Assembly (NCBI GenBank): GCA_030057555.1
Contig: JASGUU010000071.1
Location: 1 to 59,948, forward strand
Length of the DNA stretch: 59,948 nucleotides
Origin: Bacillota bacterium
GTDB lineage: Bacteria; Bacillota; Clostridia; Saccharofermentanales; Fastidiosipilaceae
Direction of reading: 5' to 3'
Both the position numbers and the translations under genes were made by a program. Shown one piece after another: positions 4,547-49,776 of this stretch (positions are counted from its first letter, which is position 1; the number at the start of each line of letters is the position of its first letter). Under the pieces are notes generated by a model that ran no database searches, was not told the DNA's origin, and saw only the letters and a program-made list of their open reading frames with translations.

Positions 4547-7500
4547 GTGAAACGAATCACTCGATGGACCGCTCTGCTGCTTGGTGCGCTGCTCATCATC
4601 GCAGGGCTGGCGGCCTGCCAGCGCGCCACCCTGACGTCACCGGTGCAGCCGTCAACCACAAGATCACCGTTCAAGCCGAGCTCCGACGCCACGACCTCGG
4701 AGGACGGTACGGAGCCGACGACGACCGCCGCACCGACGACGACCGCCGCACCAACGACGACCGCAGCACCGACGACGACGGCCGCGCCGACGACGACGGC
4801 CGCGCCGACCACGACTGCGGCGCCGACCACGACTGCGGCGCCAACTACGACACCAGAGGCGACGACGACCGGGGAGCCGGCGGGGGACATCGTTGCCGGA
4901 CTGCCTCTGAATACGCCTTACAAGTTTGCAGACAGTACTATCATCTTCCGGGATATCAGCCAGATCGAGAGCTGGGATGAAACAACCGCTGTCAAGCTGG
5001 TGCTGGACTGGAGCTATGACGGCGAAGTGCCGCGCTCTTTCGCCGAAGAGTTCTTCACCAGTGGCGAGCAGGATGGGATGCTGCTCGAAAGACAGCCCTG
5101 GAGTCCTGCTCTCGGCGATGATATGACAATGTGGGCGATGCTGCCCGGCTATACGATGTACAACCTGGAACTCGCATTCCTTCTTACGAACCCGGACGAA
5201 CTCATGACCGTAACGTTCGAATACGATGGTTCTTCCGATCCGGTGACCTTCGAGCTGCTGACGTCCGAAGCACCGGTGAACGAAGAAGCGCTTGAGGCGG
5301 AGCTGCGTCCTGATCGGCCGCTGGATCCCCAGCCGCGCGATCTCCTCCTGGATCAGCCGCTGACACTGGTGCGCGATGATATTTCCTGGGCTGAAGGCGG
5401 TGAAGCCATCTGGCGTTCTTTTGAGCTTGTCGAGGAAGATGGTGAAGTTCTTCTCATTCTGACCTTTGACTGGACGAATCTTTCCGAGGATACGGAAAAG
5501 TTCTGGACGGCCCTCCGGACACTCACTTTTCAGCAGGGCCTGCAGCTGCAGCCAGCCTATTTCAGCGATTATGTCGATTACGAAAAGTCGGACGCCGAGG
5601 TTGAACCGGGAGAAAGCATGACAGGTGTCCCGCTGGCGTACTACCTGCGCGATCGCAGCGATCTGCTGATTGAGCTCACCGACTGGTCAAATGTCAACCC
5701 GCATTATGCCGTGATCCGGGTCAGTGAGCTTGAGGGGCTGCCGGAGGACTTTGCCCCGATCGATCCGGACGCGCCGCCCTTCCCGACGCTGCCGATCGAC
5801 AGTTCGGAGCCGGCCGGGACGGCTGCGTCGGAAGCGACGGAACCCTCGGAAACCGAGCCCGCAGCAACCGAGCCCGCAGCAACCGAGCCTGCTGGGAGTG
5901 AAGCCGACTGGTCGGAGCTCGTTGCCGGTCTGCCCGTCGGTCCCGTCATCTCGCTTGGCGAGAATGAGATTACGTTCACGGATATTCGCCGTATTGTGAC
6001 GTATGACGGCGAACCGGCGCTGCGTATCGATCTCGACTGGCACAACTCCATCGCGGGTGACATTGTCAATGCCACAACGATGTTCCGGGTGACGGCCAGA
6101 CAGAACGGACAGGAGCTTGACGACATTCCGTGGAGCGATGCCATCAGCCAAGAGCCTGCAACGGTGGCCCTCCTGCCGAACGCGATGCTGTCCGGGCTGC
6201 AGTATGGCTTTGTGCTGCTGGATGAGACGAGTCCGGTGGATCTGGAATTCGCTCTGCGTTCAGAAGAGGAGTGCCTGTTCCTTACGCTCCAGCCGGCGCA
6301 GGCTGAAGAGGCAGATGAAGCGCCGCAGTGGCACACCATGATGGACGCCGAAACGGACTGCTTCGCGGGCCGGGAACCCTTTGCCATTGGCACGACACTC
6401 GACGTGGCGCCGCTGGCCTTTACGCTGCGCGGGACCGGCATTCAGACGGGAGAAGGGGAGGACGCGGCGCGGGTTGTGGTGCTGCGCTTCGATGTTGAGA
6501 ACAGGGGTGATACGGCCACCTCGGCCTGGCTGGAGCTCGACCTCTATCTGATGCAAAACGGCGGCAGTCTGCCGTGGATTGAGCTCGGGATGCCAGATGA
6601 AGATCCCGAGCTGCTGCGCCTGATCGAGCCCGGCGAAACACTGGAGGGTGTGGAGATCGGCTTCCAGCTGCGTTCCGTCGCGGATCCGGTTTTTCTGGTG
6701 AGCAATGGCGCGGTCGACATCCCGTTCCATCTGCCTCTGTCGCTGACGGACCTGGAGGAGATCAAGGGCGACGATACGGATCGGGCTCCCGTTGAAGTGG
6801 CCGGACTGCGGCTCCATGATCCGGTACGCCTCGGTGGTCAGCTCGTGACCTTCCGTTCCATTACCCGTGTGCCGAACCATGACGGGACGACCTCGCTGAA
6901 ACTGGTCATGGACTGGCAGAGCGGAAACCGGGACATCAGGACGGCGGATGACACCTTTGACATCAGCGCAACTCAAAATGGCCAAATTCTGGACGACATA
7001 CCGCAGAGTGACTACATCGACCATGAACCTTCGATTCGCGCCCTGCTGCCCGGCACCAGTCTCTGCGGTCTGCAGTACGCTTTCGTGCTGCACGATGAAA
7101 GCAGTCCGGTGGAGCTGGGCATCGGCACCCCGAGCGCCGGGGAGACGCTGGCGATCACGCTGCAGCCGGGTGAGGCGGAAGTGCTGCCGGCAGTGGACCA
7201 TTTCTGGACCGAAGAGGTTGAGCCCTATTTTACAGGCGACCCGGCGCTGGTTCCCGGCGAGGCGCTGCTGGTCGGTGGTGAGGAAATCACCGTTCAGTCC
7301 ATCATCATGCTGGATCTGCCGGAGCCGGATGAAACCTTTGGTGCCGACAGCCTCTTTGTGGCGACCTTCGACTGGACCAATATGGGCGATGAGGCGGCGA
7401 GCTTTGCCGAAATCTTCTATATTCAGGCGCTGCAGAGCGGACTTGGCACGCCGTTCATCATGAACAGCGAGTGGGTGCCGGATACGCAGTTTGAGACGGA

Positions 7501-10283: not shown

Positions 10284-13200
10284 GTGAAACGAATGACACG
10301 ATGGACCGCTCTACTGCTGAGCGCGCTGCTTATCGTCGGGGGTCTGGCGTCCTGTCAGGGGCCCGCTCAGGCGACCACAGCGGCGCCAACAGCTACGCGG
10401 GCGCCGTTCCGGCCGACCACCAAGGCCACAGCTGCGGAGACGACGCTCTCGCCCACGACGAGGCAGACGGAGACGAGCTACAGCGAGGAGCCAACAACAA
10501 CGGCGGAAGCAAGCGCAACGGAAGAGCCGACGACGACGCCGGAAGCAACGACGACGGAAGCAACGACGACGGAAGCAACGACGACGCCGGAAGCAACGAC
10601 GACGCCGGAAGCAACAACGACGCCGGAAGCAACAACGACGCCGGAAGCGACGACTGTCGCGCCGACGATGACCGTGGTCCCGCCGGCTCCGGACGCACCG
10701 GTAGTAGAGACGGTTGCCGGGCTGCCTTTGAACGAAGCATTCGAATTTGAAGACAGCACCATCATCTTCCGGGATGTCAGTCAGATTGAGACCTGGGACG
10801 AGGAAACTGCCATCAAGCTCATCGTGGAATGGAGTTATGACGGCGAGAAGCCGAGATCGTTCTCGGACGAGTTCTACGTTGATGCCCTGCAGGACGAAGA
10901 GAGGCTCGAGAAGCAGCCCTGGAGCTCCGCACTCGGTGACGATATGATGCACAGCCTGATGCTGCCCGGCTATACGATGCTCAACATGGAGCTGGCGGTG
11001 CGTGTTCCGAATCCTGAGGAGCCCTTTACGCTGACATTCGAGTACCATACCTTGAATGAGGATCTGCTGAGCTTCGAGCTGCTGACGTCCGAGGCGCGGG
11101 TGACCGAGGAGCCAGTCAAGCTGGAGATGCGCCAGGACCGGCCCTGCGATCCACAGCCGCGTGACCTCAAGATGAATGAGCCGCTCCTGCTCGTGCGCGA
11201 TGATATTTCCTGGGGCGAAGGCGGCGAAGCCATCTGGCGTTCCTATGATGTTGTCGAGGAAGACGAGGACATGCTTCTCGTCATGACGCTTGACTGGACG
11301 AACCACTCGGATGAGGCGGATTCCTTCTGGTCTGTCTTCCAGCTGCGCGCCTACCAGCAGGGCCTTGAGCTGAAAGAATCCTATTTCGCCGATGCCATCG
11401 ACTACAACAAGGTGGATGAAAAGATTGAGCCGGACGAGAGTCTGGAAGGTGTCCAGGAGGCGATCATTCTCCGGGATCGCAGTGATCTGCTGATCGAGCT
11501 GGGCAACTGGTGGGGCTACAATTCCCACTATGCCGTGCTGCAGGTCGGTGAGCTCGAGGGGCTGCCGGAGGCGTTTGCCCCGATCGATTCCGATGCCGAG
11601 CCTTTCCCGACACTGCCAACCGACAATCTGGTGCCCATCTCGGGCGACGGGACGGAATCTACCGAGCCGACCGTGCCCACGGAAACGGAACCCACTGAGC
11701 CGACCGAGACGGCCGAGGCGACGGAGCCGGTGGAGACGACGGAGCCCACTGATACAGAGCCCACTGTAAGCGAGCCTCTTCCTTCGGAGGGAACGGTGCT
11801 TGGCGGTCTGCCGCTGGGCGCGGTTATGAAGCTTGGTGAGAATGAGATCGCGTTCATCGATCTCCGCCGTGTCGTAACACGGGTTGGTGATCCGGCGCTG
11901 CGTATCGATCTGGGCTGGAACAACTGTACGGCAAGAGACATCGTCAATGCCGAGACCATGTTCCTGGTGACGGCCACGCAGAACGGACAGGAGCTGGACG
12001 ATATTCCGTGGAGTGATGCCATCAGCCACGAACCCTCAACTGTGGCCCTCCTGCCTCAGGCGATGATAGTCGGTCTGCAGTATGGCTTTGTGCTGCTGGA
12101 TGAGACGAGCCCGGTGGAGTTGACGTTCGCCCTGCGCAGCGGTGATACACCGGAGAGCCTCAAGTTCACGCTGCAGCCGTCGGAGGTCGAGGAGACGAGT
12201 GAGCCGCGGCTGTGGTTCACCCTGTTTGAAGATGAAGACAACTTCTTCTCGGATGCGGAAGCCTTTGCCATTGGCACGACACTCGACGTGGCGCCGCTGG
12301 CCTTTACGCTGCGTGAAGCCGGTATCCAGACGAGCGACGAGGAAGGTGGGAAGCCGGTCGTGGTACTGCGCTTCGACATCACGAACAACGGTGAAACGGC
12401 CACCTCGGCCTGGCTGGCGCTAGATCTCCTGCTGATGCAGGACGGCGGCAGTCTGCCGCTCGTCGAGATTGGCAGCAGCGACGATCTGAAGCTGCGGCGC
12501 CTCATTGATCCCGGCGAGACACTGGAGGGTGTGGAGATCGGCTTCCAGCTGCGTTCGGAGGCGAACCCGATTTTCGTCGTGGACAACGACTCGCTCGACT
12601 TCCCGCTGCACACGGTGCTGACGCTGACGGATCTGGCGGAAATCACGATTGAGGAAACGGACCGGGCGCCCGTTGAAGTGGCCGGCCTGCTGCTCAACGA
12701 TCCGGCACGTATCGGCGGCCAGATGCTGACCTTCCGTTCCATCACCCGGGTGCCAAACTATGACGGCACGACTTCGCTGAAGCTGGTCATGGACTGGACG
12801 AGTGGCAACCGTGATATCCGGACGGCGGATGAGACCTTTGACATCAGCGCTACACAGAACGGTGAAGAGCTCGACGCCATACCGTGGAGCGACTACATCA
12901 ATCATGAACCTTCGATTCGCGCCCTGATGCCCGGCACCAACCTCTGCGGTCTGCAGTACGCCTTCGTGCTGCTGGACGAGAGCACTCCGGTGGAGTTCAG
13001 CATCGGCACCTCGATTTCCGAGCAGCCGCTGGAGATCACACTGCTGCCGGCCGAGGCGGAAGTGCTGCCGTCGGTGGACACATTCTGGACCGATGAGGTG
13101 GAGCCCTATTTCACCGATGGGCCGGCGCTGGTTCTGGGTGAACCCTATATCATCGGCGGTGAGGAAATCACCGTACAGTCCGTCTACCTGCTGGATCTGC

Positions 13201-14840: not shown

Positions 14841-17800
14841 ATGAAACACAAAAAATGGCTGGCGCTGACTGTTGGTCTGGTCATGTTTCTGGGCGTTCTG
14901 GCTTCCTGCCAGCGTTATTCGGGAAGAACCATGCCAACACCGCAGCAGACGACCACCGAGCTGCCGGTGTTGACCACGACGCTGCCACAACTGACGACAC
15001 TGCCGCCCACGACGCTGCAGACGCAGACGAGCTCCAGCGAGGCGCCGATTCCACTACCCACCACTACGGAAGCGCCGGCGACGCCGGAGCCGACCACGAC
15101 ACCGGAGCCGACGACGACACCGGAGCCGACGACGACACCGGAGCCGACTACAACGCCGGAGCCGACTACAACGCCGGAGCCGACGACGACACCGGAGCCG
15201 ACTACCACGCCGGAGCCGACTACAACGCCGGAGCCGACGACGACGCCGGAGCCGACGACGACACCGGAGCCGACCACGACACCAGAGCCGACGACAGAGC
15301 CGGAGCCTACGGAGACGACGGAGCCGGTGCCGGAGACGGTCGCGGGGCTGCCTTTGCATACTCCATTTGTCATGGGCAACAGTACCATCGTCTTCCGCAG
15401 CATTCAGAGGATCCAGACCACCGATGGTGGAGTGGCGGCGAAGCTGACCTTTGACTGGTCGCTCGCAGGAGAGTCGATTCACAGTTTTGGCAGTCTTTTC
15501 AGCCTGACTGCGCAGCAGGGCACTGAAGAGCTCGAGCGCAATCCCGACAGTCCTGCGCTTGACGGCAGGGCGAGCAGTCTCTTCATGCTGCCGGGATATA
15601 CGCTTGAGGGTGTACAGGCTGCATTCCGGATTCCGGAGGCATCCGAGCCTTTCGTGCTGCATCTGGCGCCCTGGTTCATGCCGGGGACAGAACCGCTGGC
15701 CTTTGAAATTCAGACGGCGGAGCTGCAGTCGAACGAGGAGCAGGCGGGCTGGAAAGCAGTCTGGAACGAGCCCTTTGACCCGCATCCACGTGATCTCGTG
15801 CCCGGGCGTCCACTCGCGATGGTGGATTCTCTGCTGACCTGGCAGGGATCGTGGCTTGTGACCGGCGAATCGGGAGTGGTGAGCCTCGTCATGCAGCTGG
15901 ACTGGCAGAATCTGGGAGAGGAAGACAGGACATTCAGGCAGGCCTTTGAGACCATTTTGTTCCAGGGAGGACTCCCGCTCCCCGTCAACTACGATCCGGC
16001 TGTGTCAGTCGTGGACAGCCTCGATGCCGTGGTGGCTCCCGGTGGGACCCAGACGGGTGGCCAGGTTGCCGTTGATCTGCGCAGCCGCGGCGATGTGCTG
16101 GTCTGGCTGCGATCGCCGGGTTATGACGATCAGCACTTTGCCGTGATCCGGCCCGCGGATATCGGTGAGCTGCCGGAGGACTTTGTGCCGGTCGACCCGA
16201 GTGCCGAGCCGGAGCCGACACTGCCGACGGATACATCGGAGCCATCGACGACACCGGAGCCGGAGGAAACACCGACTTCGACACTGCTGCCCGAGCCGGT
16301 GCTGCCCGAACCGGTGCCGCCGGAGACAACGCCGACTTCGACGGCGCCGCCGGAGACAACGCCGAGCGAGACCGAGCCGCCGGAGACGGCACCGCCCGAG
16401 ACAGCACCGCCCGAGACGGCACCGCCCGAGACAGCGCCGATCGAGACCGAGCCGCCGGAGACGACACCGCCCGAGACGACGCCGAGCGAGCCTGAACCCA
16501 CGGAGACAGAGCCTGGAGAAGACAGCCTGATTCTGGATGAGGATCTGGCCAGCGGCGAATCGTATCTGACCTTCCGTTCGGCGAGCCTGGTGCCTGCGGC
16601 TGAGGGCAGGACTGCGCTGAAGCTGGTACTTGACTGGCGGAATGGAAATCCGGATATCCGGACGGCGGCGGAGAGTTTTGCCTTCGAAGGCATGCAGAAT
16701 GGCCTGCTGTTGAACAACGTCCCGGCGAGTGACTATATCAATCATGAGCCGGCGTATTCGGCGCTGCTGCCGGGCATGCTGCTGCGGGGTCTGCAGTATG
16801 GTTTCGTGCTGGAGGATCTGGCTGCGCCGGTGACGGTGACAGTCCGCAATCTGGTGCAGGAGGGCGAGCTTGTCTTCGTGATCGACCCTGCCACGCTCAT
16901 GGAGCGGCTGGAGTCGGATGCGTTCTCGACAGAGCTGGTGGAGGACTTCTTCGCCGGCCAGCCACCCGTGACGCTGGGAGAAAACACGGATATCGGTGGC
17001 CAGGTGCTGACGGTGGAGAGCGTGCTGCTGCTGCAGCTGCCGGACTTCGATGCCGAGCTCGGGACCGACCGGCTGCTGGTGGCGGGTTTTGCGTGGACGA
17101 ACCTCGGCGCCGAGACGGCGACCTTCGGCTCGACCTTTGATATTCAGGCGCTGCAGTACGGGCTCGGCTGCCTCCATGTGCAGACGGAGCATGTGCCGGA
17201 GACGCGGACGGAGATGCAGATCGCGCCCGGAGAGACGATCCGGGGAGTGCTGCTGCCCTTTGTGCTGCGCGATGACAGTACGGTGCGGCTGACGCTCGCG
17301 ACAGCGGCGGACGGGCAGGCAACATATCTGGATGTCCTGCCCGGAGATCTGGAGCTGGTGACGGAGATCGAGCCCGCGCCCATCGAGCTGGCCGGTCTGC
17401 TGCTCAACGAGGCGCTGGGGCTGGGGACGACGACGGTGGAATTCCGCCGGATTGAACGGGTGCCCGACGAAAGCGATGCGCTGACCGTGCTGCGGCTGGT
17501 TCTCGACTTTGGTCATGGCGATGTGCGGCCGCGGACGAGTGCCGAGCTGCTGGATCTCGTGGCGGTGCAGAACGGGGTTGAGCTCGAAGCTGCGGCCGCT
17601 TCAGCCGTGCTCGACCTGAGCGGGCAGTCGCAGTCGGTCCTGCCGGGCGCGACACTGCGTGGTGTCCAGTATGGCTTCGCGCTGCTGGATGCCGTGACGC
17701 CGGTGGAGCTGACGGTGAAACTGCGGGATGCGGGGGCCGAGGCCGGAATGCTGGTCTATACACTGCTGCCGGATCAGGCTCCCGAGAGCCGCACCGTCTA

Positions 17801-45671: not shown

Positions 45672-47090
45672 CTAGAAGTGGAAGTCGCGGCCGCCGGAGC
45701 GGATCTCGGCGAGCCAGCTGCGCGTCTTCTCACGGACGCGCTCATTCGGGATGCGCCCGAGCTCGGCCTCAATGACTTCGAGCCCACGGGCGCGGGTTGC
45801 GGGCTTGGCATAATCCTCAAGATATTCCTGCAGTGTCATCAGGGCGTTGGGCTGGCAGATGTTGACGATCTGGCCGTTCTTCAGCAGGGTCATGAAGCGG
45901 TCGCCGGTGCGGCCCTCGCGGTAGCAGGCGGTGCAGAAGGAGGGGATGTAACCCAGGCCAAGGAGCCAGTGGACAACGTCGTCCAGGCTGCGGGTGTCGG
46001 AGACATCGAACTGGGCGGTGTCGCCTTCGTTTGTTTCCGGGTGGTCGTAGCCGCCGACGGTGGTACGTGAGCCGCCGCTGACCTGGGAGATGCCGAGGCC
46101 GAGGGCCTGCTCGCGGACGCGGACGGATTCGCGCGTGGAGATGATCATTCCGGTGTAGGGGACGGCGATGCGGATGGTGGCAATGAGGTGCAGGAAGAGC
46201 TCGTCGGGGACGGCGTTTTTGAAGTCAGCGACGTCGATGTCGTCGGCCGGGCAGATGCGCGGGACGGAGATGGTGTGGGGGCCGACGCCGTAGGTCGCTT
46301 CGAGGTGTTCGGCGTGCATCAGCAGGCCGACGAGCTCGTAGTCGTAGTGGTCGAGGCCGAAGAGAACGCCAAGGCCGACATCGTCGATGCCGCCCTGCAT
46401 GGCGCGGTCCATCGCCTCCGTGTGCCAGTCGTAGTCGGCTTTTGGCCCGAAGACGTGCAGCTCTTCGTAGCGCTCACGGTCGTAGGTCTCCTGGAAGAGA
46501 ATGTAGGTGCCGATACCGGCTTCCTTCAGCTTCCGGTAGTCGTCGACCGTGGTGGCCGCGATGTTGATGTTGACGCGGCGGATGGCGCCGTTGGCGTGGT
46601 GGATCGAATAGATGGTGCGGATGGATTCGAGGTAGTAGTCGAGGGTGTTGCGCACCGGGTCTTCGCCGGCCTCCAGGGCCAGACGCTTGTGTCCCATGTC
46701 CTGCAGGGCGATGACTTCACGGCGGATTTCGTCCTGGGTCAGCTGTTTGCGCGGGATGCTCTCGTTCTGGGCATGATAGGGGCAGTAGAGGCAGCCGTTG
46801 ATGCAGTAGTTCGAGAGGTAGAGGGGGGCGAACATGACAATGCGGCGGCCGTAGAAGCGTTCCTTGATGCTGCGGGCGAGCGCATTCATCTCGGCGATGA
46901 GATCAGGCTCGTTCATCAGCAGGAGGAGGGCGGCGTCACGGTGGCCGAGACCCTTCATCTCCTTCGCCGTATCGAGGACGCGGCGGATTTCGGCACGGTT
47001 CGAGGCGTTGGCACGGGCCCATTCGAGACTGTCGAGGATCTCCTGGTGATTGATGAATTCGGCGGCGTTGGACGACCGTGGGTCGTACAT
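45672..47090 (-). CDS. hydG: [FeFe]-hydrogenase maturase HydG (tyrosine lyase)
   Basis: A 472-residue radical SAM enzyme that splits tyrosine to give the CO and CN ligands of the H-cluster and releases an Fe(CO)2(CN)(cysteine) species. The SAM-cluster motif CINGCLYC gives Cys96, Cys100 and Cys103. The C-terminal auxiliary cluster motif CTACYREGRTGDRF, specific to HydG over ThiH, is present near 415. Length is typical. ATG 47090 follows GGAAAGGAG. It is the first gene of the hydG-hydF-malY-M20 operon; a promoter is visible at 47199-47228. Confidence 0.96.
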   Translation of the reverse strand: MYDPRSSNAAEFINHQEILDSLEWARANASNRAEIRRVLDTAKEMKGLGHRDAALLLLMNEPDLIAEMNALARSIKERFYGRRIVMFAPLYLSNYCINGCLYCPYHAQNESIPRKQLTQDEIRREVIALQDMGHKRLALEAGEDPVRNTLDYYLESIRTIYSIHHANGAIRRVNINIAATTVDDYRKLKEAGIGTYILFQETYDRERYEELHVFGPKADYDWHTEAMDRAMQGGIDDVGLGVLFGLDHYDYELVGLLMHAEHLEATYGVGPHTISVPRICPADDIDVADFKNAVPDELFLHLIATIRIAVPYTGMIISTRESVRVREQALGLGISQVSGGSRTTVGGYDHPETNEGDTAQFDVSDTRSLDDVVHWLLGLGYIPSFCTACYREGRTGDRFMTLLKNGQIVNICQPNALMTLQEYLEDYAKPATRARGLEVIEAELGRIPNERVREKTRSWLAEIRSGGRDFHF

Positions 47091-47198
47091 GAGTGATACT
47101 CCTTTCCCGGCCCGGCTGCTGCACTCCGTTCCGTGGAGCCAGGGGGGTCGGGCCCCGTCCGTATACGCACTTCGGATGGCGTATTACGAACCTTAATC

Positions 47199-47228
47199 AT
47201 TATAGTTAGCCGCTGGTGCTCCGTCCAA
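47199..47228 (-). promoter_or_regulatory. Sigma-70-type promoter of the hydG operon
   Basis: On the minus strand: -35 TTGGAC, 18-bp spacer, -10 TATAAT. The predicted start lies near 47192, giving a leader of about 100 nt before hydG. This is the best-matching promoter in the window. Confidence 0.7.
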
Positions 47229-48131
47229 CTCATTTGCATCACTGGGTGCACGTCATCTTTGCCTGGACGAGTAAAACCTCTTTTCGAGCCTTCCTCAAAC
47301 ACTTGAGACACCGGAGTTTTAGCGCAGCTTGCATGCAGGCGATGGAAGATCTTTCTCCAGTTGCCTGCGTAGTGGCCAACCGCACAAATGGACGGAATGT
47401 GAATGGTATCTAAAAGGACAGCGGGCAGAGAGGATGGCAGGCACGACCAGGCACTTTCCAGGAGATCGTGAAGCGATCTCAGGTTCTATTGCTCTGATGC
47501 CGTATGGTAAAGGCGGTCCCGACAAGCAGCGCTGCGCCCTTCTTTGTGGTCAGGATAGCGAGTAATCCAAATCTTTTTTTGGAAAACTCCTCGTTTTGAC
47601 CAGAAATGGCCCTTTTGTGGTCAGGATAGCGAGTAATCCAAATCTTTTTTTGGATAACTCTTCGTTTTGACCAGAAACAGCCCTTTTGTGGTCAAGACAG
47701 CGAGTAATCCAAATCTTTTTTTGGATAACTCTTCATTTTGACCAGAAACAGCCCTTTTGTGGTCAAGATAGCGAGTAATCCAAATCTTTTTTTGGATAAC
47801 GCTTCGTTTTGACCACCAGAAGTACGCAAGTTGCTATTTTCCCCTTGCCAGCTGTACTCCTGGCATGATCACCCGCTTCCCGACATTCATGACGTGCTCC
47901 CTGCTTCGCTTTGGCTCCTGCTTTTCCATGACGGGCGCGAATGAGGATGATTCATCCGCCTGCCGCCGGTCTCTCCTGGGGCTGACAATTGACGCCGTGG
48001 AATCGGGCTGTTTGAATAAGAGATACTGATTCACGTACCATGGACTGAACCCATGGACCAGAGAGGGTCGGACGACCGACCGCAGACCCATCTGCCGGTG
48101 AGATGTCCGGCTGCGAGGAGAGGAGAAGGCT
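47229..48131. other. Non-coding kilobase with stem-loops and tandem hairpins
   Basis: About 900 bp between the hydG promoter and the DUF3842 gene. Stem-loops lie at 47335-47368 (arms GCAGGCGATGGA and TCCAGTTGCCTGC), 47462-47480 (perfect GAGATCG/CGATCTC), and 48067-48082 (GGTCGG/CCGACC). The 71-bp tandem repeat occupies 47547-47815. Frames on either strand have no recognisable family or ribosome binding site. It could encode one or more structured RNAs. Confidence 0.6.
47547..47815 (+). repeat. Four tandem 71-bp hairpin repeats
   Basis: Copies start at 47547, 47618, 47689 and 47760, an exact 71-bp period. Each is a 56-nt imperfect palindrome: a 25-nt arm beginning TGGTCA and ending ATCCAAA, a loop TCTTTT, and a 25-nt arm TTTGGATAAC to TTTTGACCA, plus a 15-nt linker (GAAACAGCCCTTTTG). 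Of 25 positions 19 pair normally, and three of the rest are G-U or U-G when read as plus-strand RNA. Copies differ at only a few bases. There are no variable spacers, so this is not a CRISPR array. Confidence 0.9.
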
Positions 48132-48587
48132 GTGAGACAACAAAGCGAGGCCCTGCTCGTCGTTATTGACGGCAAGGGCGGCGGTCTCGGAGCCGCCCTC
48201 ATCGGCCGCATCCGTGAGCGCCTGCAGGCACCCGCCGGTGTCCGTCTCGTGGCGCTGGGAACGAATGCGAGCGCGACAACCGCCATGCTGCGCGCCGGCG
48301 CCGACGACGCAGCGACGGGTGAAAACGCCATCGTCCATATGTGCGCCCGCGCCGACCTCATCATCGGTCCGCTCGCGATCGTGGCGAGCGGGGCGATGCT
48401 GGGCGAAATATCACAGCAGATAGCCACGGCTGTTGCCGAGAGCCCGGCGCCGAAACTACTCGTCCCCACCGAACGCTGCGGCATCATGGTTGCCGGTGTG
48501 GCCGCCGGACCGCAGCGCCTGCTGCTGGACGAGGTCGCCGAACGCGTGGCCGTCTGGCTGTGCAGCAGCGCAGCCGGGGTGCCGTGA
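48132..48587 (+). CDS. DUF3842 family protein
   Basis: A 151-residue small protein that matches the DUF3842 pattern found in anaerobic Firmicutes. It opens with VVIDGKGGGLGAAL (10-23), continues with ALGTNASATTAMLRAGADDA then ATGENAI, and ends with GPLAIVASGAMLGEIS and PTERCGIMVAG. The glycine-rich start suggests a nucleotide-binding fold. GTG 48132 has GAGGAGAGGAG upstream. It overlaps the following methyltransferase start by 4 nt (GTGA), so they are co-translated. The function of the family is not known. Confidence 0.88.
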   Translation: MRQQSEALLVVIDGKGGGLGAALIGRIRERLQAPAGVRLVALGTNASATTAMLRAGADDAATGENAIVHMCARADLIIGPLAIVASGAMLGEISQQIATAVAESPAPKLLVPTERCGIMVAGVAAGPQRLLLDEVAERVAVWLCSSAAGVP

Positions 48588-49293: not shown

Positions 49294-49776
49294 CTAGCCC
49301 AGCAGAGCAGCGATGACAGAGAAGAGGATGACGCCCAGTGTGAGGGCGAGCACAATAATGATGACCAGCTTGATGCGGCTTTCGAGTGCTGCCTGCTTAT
49401 CCACCGGTGCCTTCGGGGGACGGGGCGGCGGTGCGTAGCCCTGCGGCGGCGCCTGCTGCTGCGGCGGTGCGTAGCCCTGCGGCGGCCCCTGCTGCTGCGC
49501 ATAACCCTGCGGCGCTGCCTGCTGCTGCGGCATCTGGTAGCCCTGCGGCGGTACCTGCTGCTGCGGCTGGGCATAGCCCTGCGGCGGAGCCGCCTGCTGC
49601 TGCGCATAATCCTGCGGCGCTGCCTGCTGCTGCGGCATCTGGTAGCCCTGCGGCGGCGCCTGCTGCTGCGGCTGGGCATAGCCCTGCGGTGCCGCCTGCT
49701 GCGGCGGTGTCTGGTAGCCCTGCGGTGGTGCCACCGGCTGGTTCTGCTGCCTCTGATTGGCGTTCTGGTCCTGCAT
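49294..49776 (-). CDS. P/Q/G/Y-repeat protein with C-terminal membrane anchor
   Basis: A 160-residue protein with an N-terminal low-complexity region (about 15-115) built from repeats such as [11 protein letters not shown] and [11 protein letters not shown], then a charged stretch and one hydrophobic helix near the C-terminus ([20 protein letters not shown]). It looks tail-anchored, with the disordered part probably in the cytoplasm. The underlying DNA has long near-identical repeats, so length may vary. ATG 49776 follows AAGGAG. The repeat type resembles the disordered N-tails of Firmicute DUF4190-type proteins such as the one at 58482. No function assigned. Confidence 0.75.

Follow-up and report, generated by a model that had tools for sequence, protein, structure and literature searches.

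Tandem hairpins in a clostridial intergenic gap form the middle module of a dispersed, probably BOX-like element

The four tandem hairpins located in a non-coding gap of contig JASGUU010000071.1 (assembly GCA_030057555.1; the whole 59,948-nt stretch that was analysed is referred to as the window) form the central module of a dispersed element of 658 bp (47244–47901), in which n hairpin units B stand between a left module A and a right module C. We consider it quite probable (roughly 0.85) that this element is a composite, BOX-like non-autonomous DNA transposon of MITE-like kind, built as A-(B)n-C. Three features by which MITEs are recognized are observed, namely terminal inverted repeats, a degenerate target duplication of ~9 bp and dispersed copies without an internal transposase gene, and the family displays the BOX-type A-(B)n-C layout with variable n.

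The array spans 47543–47815 with a period of 71, 3.8 copies and 95% matches (TRF, score 483), in agreement with the four nearly identical 71-bp hairpin units reported in the initial annotation. On the plus strand, units B1 (47543–47613), B2 (47614–47684) and B3 (47685–47755) each comprise a 56-nt hairpin (47547–47602, 47618–47673 and 47689–47744, respectively) and a linker; in the final unit B4 (47756–47815), with its hairpin at 47760–47815, module C replaces the linker, which holds for most arrays in the family. In each hairpin 25 opposed positions enclose a loop of 6 nt, and neighbouring hairpins are 15 nt apart. Folding is far above the chance level, with z-scores of −4.5 to −6.2 per hairpin for the plus-strand RNA and −3.1 to −5.6 for the minus strand (200 dinucleotide shuffles each). 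The reported lack of CRISPR-type spacers and of coding potential was likewise borne out, as the linkers share one conserved sequence of 11 nt and the longest open stretch in the element is 80 codons across six frames. GC-rich tandem repeats with periods of 15–105 bp were also located by TRF elsewhere in the window, at 4714–4871, 10488–10654, 15079–15326, 16289–16508 and 49425–49732.

The limits of the element became visible from the conserved flanks of the arrays, which extend ~300 nt on the 5′ side and ~86 nt on the 3′ side and have sharp edges in most copies. In the window, the 5′ flank corresponds to module A (47244–47542, plus strand; HMM match 47244–47527), for which at least 40 matches were obtained in the same genome, itself included; it contains a small stem-loop at 47462–47480 and closes with a GC-rich joint at 47528–47542. 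The 3′ flank corresponds to module C (47816–47901, plus strand; HMM match 47816–47899). Both ends of the element carry a bipartite inverted repeat of 12+4+8 positions, GGGTGCACGTCA-4 nt-TGTCGGGA, present at 47244–47267 on the plus strand with two mismatches and at 47878–47901 on the minus strand with one; these two segments were also paired with each other by a repeat finder. The end pattern gave 68 matches at up to three mismatches, as compared to none for a reversed control pattern. Immediately outside the repeats lie the two copies of a putative 9-bp target-site duplication, TGCATCACT at 47235–47243 and TGCTTCGCT at 47902–47910, which share 7 of 9 letters.

Altogether 33 complete A-to-C elements could be delimited, 30 in the own genome (361–742 bp) and three in a congeneric sister genome. 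A second, larger non-coding repeat hosts eight copies, all nested at one position and, where best preserved, bordered left and right by CCATTTTG; seven such same-site elements (L021, L023, L028, L034, L051, L053 and L095) were removed before the duplication test, L052 being kept. Among the 26 non-redundant elements that remained, the best register, which was 9 bp, gave a flank agreement of 0.53 of positions, as compared to a mean of 0.32 and a maximum of 0.40 in shuffled flanks (0 of 2000 shuffles reached the observed value). The duplications are degenerate: one is identical at 9/9 letters, three at 8/9 and six, the window copy included, at 7/9, and fewer than seven letters matched in the other 16 elements. 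A clean empty site was not found, and the eight matches to an empty-site pattern in the second repeat element proved to be filled sites. This larger repeat, which often hosts a nested hairpin element, has ends TACACGTCCGGCACCC/GGGTGCCGGACGTGTA (L052, about 4659–6145; L057, about 963–1588) and an apparent 6-bp duplication of its own (GTCCAC at L057).

Copies are abundant in the own genome, an assembly of 2.9 Mb in 90 contigs that is 96% complete. A one-unit query gave at least 174 matches, some of which represent a single palindrome detected on each strand, and the first 40 arrays, fetched with their flanks, contained 134 units. Profile searches found at least 60 loci and at least 168 B units; at least 46 loci contain module A, at least 51 contain module C and at least 58 contain one or more units, the unit and locus counts being lower bounds taken from the best 40 of 84 unit candidates and the best 40 of 52 module-A candidates. 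Where units are present, their number ranges from 1 to 7 per locus in the own genome and reaches 12 per fetched locus in the sister genome, JASGUW01 (‘Bacillota bacterium isolate MAG87_KBP’), which carries more copies than the own genome. None of the at least 60 own-genome loci has units on both strands, as compared to 4 of 20 fetched loci in the sister.

The initial annotation had proposed a search for related arrays in other genomes, and these were indeed present in the congeneric JASGUW01. A DNA search of 38 genomes gave matches in the own genome and one congeneric genome only, and a unit-junction pattern run against 84,980 species genomes, a set that may lack the own genome's records, matched JASGUW01 alone. 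A covariance model was applied to 188 genomes of the order with stricter filters and the best 30 candidates scored per genome; the own and sister genomes gave at least 30 matches each, and one weak match each was obtained in two of the 186 others (G119, E 4.8e-5; G186, E 4.4e-4), which we take as chance. No match was observed in plasmids, phages or viral contigs, and no report assignable to this hairpin element family appeared in the literature within reach of the search, which excluded most subscription papers. Between the two species the similarity of module A is 62%, as compared to 78% within the own genome.

Units are slightly more alike within arrays than between them (0.896 vs 0.866), and 23.1 of 125 units have their nearest neighbour inside their own array, as compared to 2.7 expected, which shows that local unit duplication occurs. 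Still, the nearest neighbours are found mostly in other arrays, which fits a spread of whole elements. In the closest pair of elements (L029 and L036) the A modules are 96.5% alike and the units number three and four, respectively.

The gene context was as initially annotated, one side of the gap being occupied by HydF (with Pfam HydF domains) and a HydG-type radical-SAM/BATS protein and the other by DUF3842. However, a locus-specific RNA belonging to the hydrogenase/DUF3842 gap was not supported, as the element is dispersed, neutral in orientation and without a blastn trace in 571 bp upstream of the DUF3842 match in the sister. The sister contig begins 571 bp ahead of its DUF3842 match, and blastn did not detect the window element in these 571 bp, which carry an unrelated hairpin repeat. 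For 46 elements with genes on both sides, the strands of the neighbours relative to the element were ++ in 13 cases, −+ in 13, −− in 12 and +− in 8, i.e. without orientation preference; the gene calls derive from a crude hexamer model, under which two elements overlap a predicted ORF and 14 of 60 have no called gene on one side. In combination, the unbiased orientation and the negative blastn result upstream of the sister's DUF3842 match make a gene-specific role unlikely, and in view of the dispersal and of that same blastn result a regulatory array for hydG or DUF3842 was rejected.

The hairpin itself is conserved across the family. In 60 diverse units, the opposed positions were paired in 80.9% of cells, as compared to 29.8–49.5% in slid registers, and doubly changed cells numbered 110 vs 68 in shuffles (0 of 500 shuffles reached 110); two of the five pairing measures were nevertheless not above shuffles (doubly changed pairs, 11 vs 12.0; further pair types, 34 vs 32.6). 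With 179 representatives the paired fraction was 0.836, and at most 0.496 when slid. For the own genome alone, doubly changed cells number 17, and slid registers reach as many as 28. The outer stem TGGTCA/TGACCA and the outer pairs 6–10 are nearly invariant, and the apical stem varies between subfamilies with matched arms: ATCCAAA/TTTGGAT, ATGGCAA/TTGCCAT, and ATACAAA with its own match. Apical-stem changes between subfamilies keep the pairing, but within a subfamily no stem block pairs significantly better than shuffled arms, and the ‘covariation’ amounts to a few subfamily-level switches. A pairing between units, from each right arm to the following left arm, was also considered and was no better than that inside a unit.

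Positions 18–23 pair worse than shuffled in the two CCAAA sets (the observed value was equalled or exceeded by 981 of 1000 shuffles in one set and by all 1000 in the other), with no clear deficit of pairing in the other subfamily sets. On this ground the middle of the hairpin is read as an internal loop; it is perhaps kept unpaired, and perfect long palindromes may be avoided. Regular tandem imperfect hairpins with an internal loop and a strand bias are reminiscent of single-stranded DNA recombination sites of the integron attC kind, or of a CRISPR-like array. Such an identity is next to negligible in probability, as there are no cassettes, conserved 11-nt linkers take the place of spacers between hairpins only 15 nt apart, and the base of the hairpin is a nearly invariant TGGTCA/TGACCA, in which the attC core motif is not recognisable.

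The strand preference suggested initially, from G-U pairs expected on plus-strand transcription, proved more nuanced. In the consensus, three of the six non-Watson-Crick positions do favour the plus strand as claimed, but the units vary: G-U or U-G pairs number four in units 1 and 2, two in unit 3 and three in unit 4, and pair 15/50, A-C in all four units, speaks for the minus strand; unit 3 has another position of this kind, pair 14/51 (C-A). Across the 179 representatives the mean single-sequence fold energy is −24.4 kcal/mol for the plus and −21.2 kcal/mol for the minus strand, the small ACAAA subfamily slightly favouring the minus strand. Stem changes between near-identical unit pairs were of the Watson-Crick/G-U type in 55 cases and of the Watson-Crick/A-C type in 28 (binomial p 0.004 if the changes are independent; count restricted to 56-nt hairpins with one of three apical types). 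Counted by position, however, the excess shrinks to 8 vs 5, pair 15/50 pointing strongly the opposite way. Among unique hairpins, plus-strand G-U/U-G cells outnumber A-C/C-A cells by 410 to 76 in the own genome and by 557 to 164 in the sister, counts that are inflated by shared ancestry. Folding of the plus strand when single-stranded is thus modestly supported. The bias fits single-stranded DNA as well as RNA, since G-T pairs in folded single-stranded DNA would give an equal bias.

An RNA role was put forward initially, and of that proposal the conserved hairpin and the favoured plus-strand pairing are supported. A rival reading is a host-serving regulatory or sponge RNA, whose transcribed plus-strand hairpins would act as protein-binding sites or as substrates of RNase III. 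The better plus-strand folds, the excess of G-U over A-C stem changes and the nearly invariant outer stem would all suit such an RNA. Still, single-stranded DNA would account for the bias equally well, the excess by position is small, the arms lack covariation within subfamilies and the orientation to genes is unbiased. Furthermore, modules A and C have no plus-strand fold beyond column shuffles; for the minus strand of module A the value was −13.5 vs −8.4 (sd 3.3) in column shuffles. A simple consensus scan of 47000–48300 gave no plus-strand promoter-like site, and Rfam gave no match at the gathering threshold, only a chance-level microRNA match (E 0.25). A host-serving RNA is accordingly unlikely. 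An intrinsic terminator was also considered and rejected, the T-run being in the loop and not 3′ of the stem; two terminator-like matches lie outside the array.

The search for a mobilizing enzyme covered three transposase families in two fragmented draft genomes, and no partner transposase with the ends of the element was found. Transposase_mut gave no match in either genome. DDE_Tnp_1 gave four matches in the own genome, where ends were found near L200 only and belong to a nested copy, and 15 in the sister, where three (L197, L203 and L206) have weak two-mismatch matches to the 12-letter end nearby, never as a flanking inverted pair. The second repeat element was rejected as a transposase carrier, its longest fragment having no Pfam match with stops read as X. 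Y1 transposase was without a match in the own genome, and the only match of the two genomes, at L212:1501–1734 of the sister, is interrupted by four internal stops and is situated between two unrelated hairpin arrays. Judging from its translation, this broken gene is presumably IS200-like, and a REPtron at L212 was rejected.

The latter finding is relevant to palindromes of the REP/BIME type, which a RAYT (Y1) transposase disperses by recognizing hairpins in the single-stranded state. The element resembles REP/BIME and REPtrons in its grouped and dispersed intergenic palindromes (clustered extragenic palindromes in PMC3733652), and the sole Y1 match is placed between other hairpin arrays. Conversely, that Y1 gene is broken, the own genome has no Y1 match, the element is bounded by terminal inverted repeats and target duplications, and its hairpins terminate in TGGTCA and lack the GTAG tag that the same paper gives for REPs. 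This origin is highly improbable.

According to PMC3049150, pneumococcal BOX consists of boxA and boxC around a variable tandem boxB array, and BOX elements (Streptococcus pneumoniae, S. suis) share with the present family the composite A-(B)n-C layout, variable tandem B modules that fold largely alone, and a parasitic, non-autonomous and dispersed character, sometimes inside other repeats. The present element differs in having a 71-bp B unit that forms a long imperfect hairpin, in its duplications of ~9 bp and in a module A of ~300 nt; the likeness is one of architecture. Among the 84,980 genomes scanned, the unit junction matched JASGUW01 alone, which is not a streptococcus. We would call the element BOX-like by design, not by descent. 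With prokaryotic MITEs, as described in PMC10969869 and PMC3733652, it shares terminal inverted repeats, target duplications and a non-coding, intergenic and folded nature, yet it is larger and modular, with a tandem hairpin block, and no partner insertion sequence was identified. Size counts against the MITE reading, as the 30 own-genome elements (361–742 bp) exceed the 70–300 bp stated for MITEs in PMC3733652. Also on the negative side are the unsuccessful searches for a transposase with these ends and for a clean empty site, the 16 of 26 elements with poorly matching duplications, and the four sister loci that have units on both strands.

For the composite, BOX-like transposon the following course appears plausible. 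A transposase supplied in trans would have used the 12+4+8 bipartite ends, and transposition would have made the target duplications of ~9 bp that are now seen in degenerate form. The number of units would then change locally, most likely through slippage or unequal exchange in hairpin-prone DNA, as suggested by the extra similarity within arrays and by the closest element pair with its three and four units. From the G-U bias, the strand that folds when single-stranded would be the plus strand, in read-through RNA or in transient single-stranded DNA. Our best guess is that the hairpins fold in read-through transcripts and may thereby limit the effect of the element on transcription, or the damage that transcription does to it; alternatively, they could constitute a protein-binding structure during movement.

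Four sequence-unrelated families of tandem hairpins were distinguished in the genus, F1 (the window element), F2 (60–61 bp), F3 (70 bp) and F4 (about 92 bp), with a similar design of outer stem, internal loop, apical stem and short linker. Within F2 and likewise within F3, some arrays have flanks in common, as if these too were located in dispersed elements, which is not the case in F4. In the stretches examined, F2 (apical stem CCCCGA/TCGGGG) comprises 15 arrays and 41 units, among them L202:2450–3147, L114:887–1127, L138:1–298 and L195:3152–3342 of the sister and L093:2717–2933 of the own genome. F3 (apical stem GAGTTGTGTCAG/CTGACACAACTC) comprises nine arrays and 20 units, including L203:2869–3072, L191:6852–7014 and L212:910–1185 of the sister, and F4 (GTCCAGAGCG/CGCTCTGGAC) four arrays and ten units, including L192:about 1–180, L211:399–776 and L146:657–880 of the sister; one F4 array is situated upstream of the DUF3842 gene of the sister. 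Arrays of long tandem hairpins might on this basis be a genus-wide device, active as the single-stranded plus strand and bound by a dedicated RNA- or single-stranded-DNA-binding protein, which would be a factor in transposition or else a host nuclease buffered by the arrays, a generalization that we offer as speculative and rather unlikely.

The window array carries a caution, in that a run of tandem hairpins seen in just one intergenic gap may be part of a transposon. The family appears to provide an independent case of the BOX design. A dispersed family with more than 100 hairpin copies in one genome constitutes a set of natural replicates for testing, and as the number of hairpins varies by element, effects on transcripts and on the spread of copies should be readable from RNA-seq and strain comparisons.
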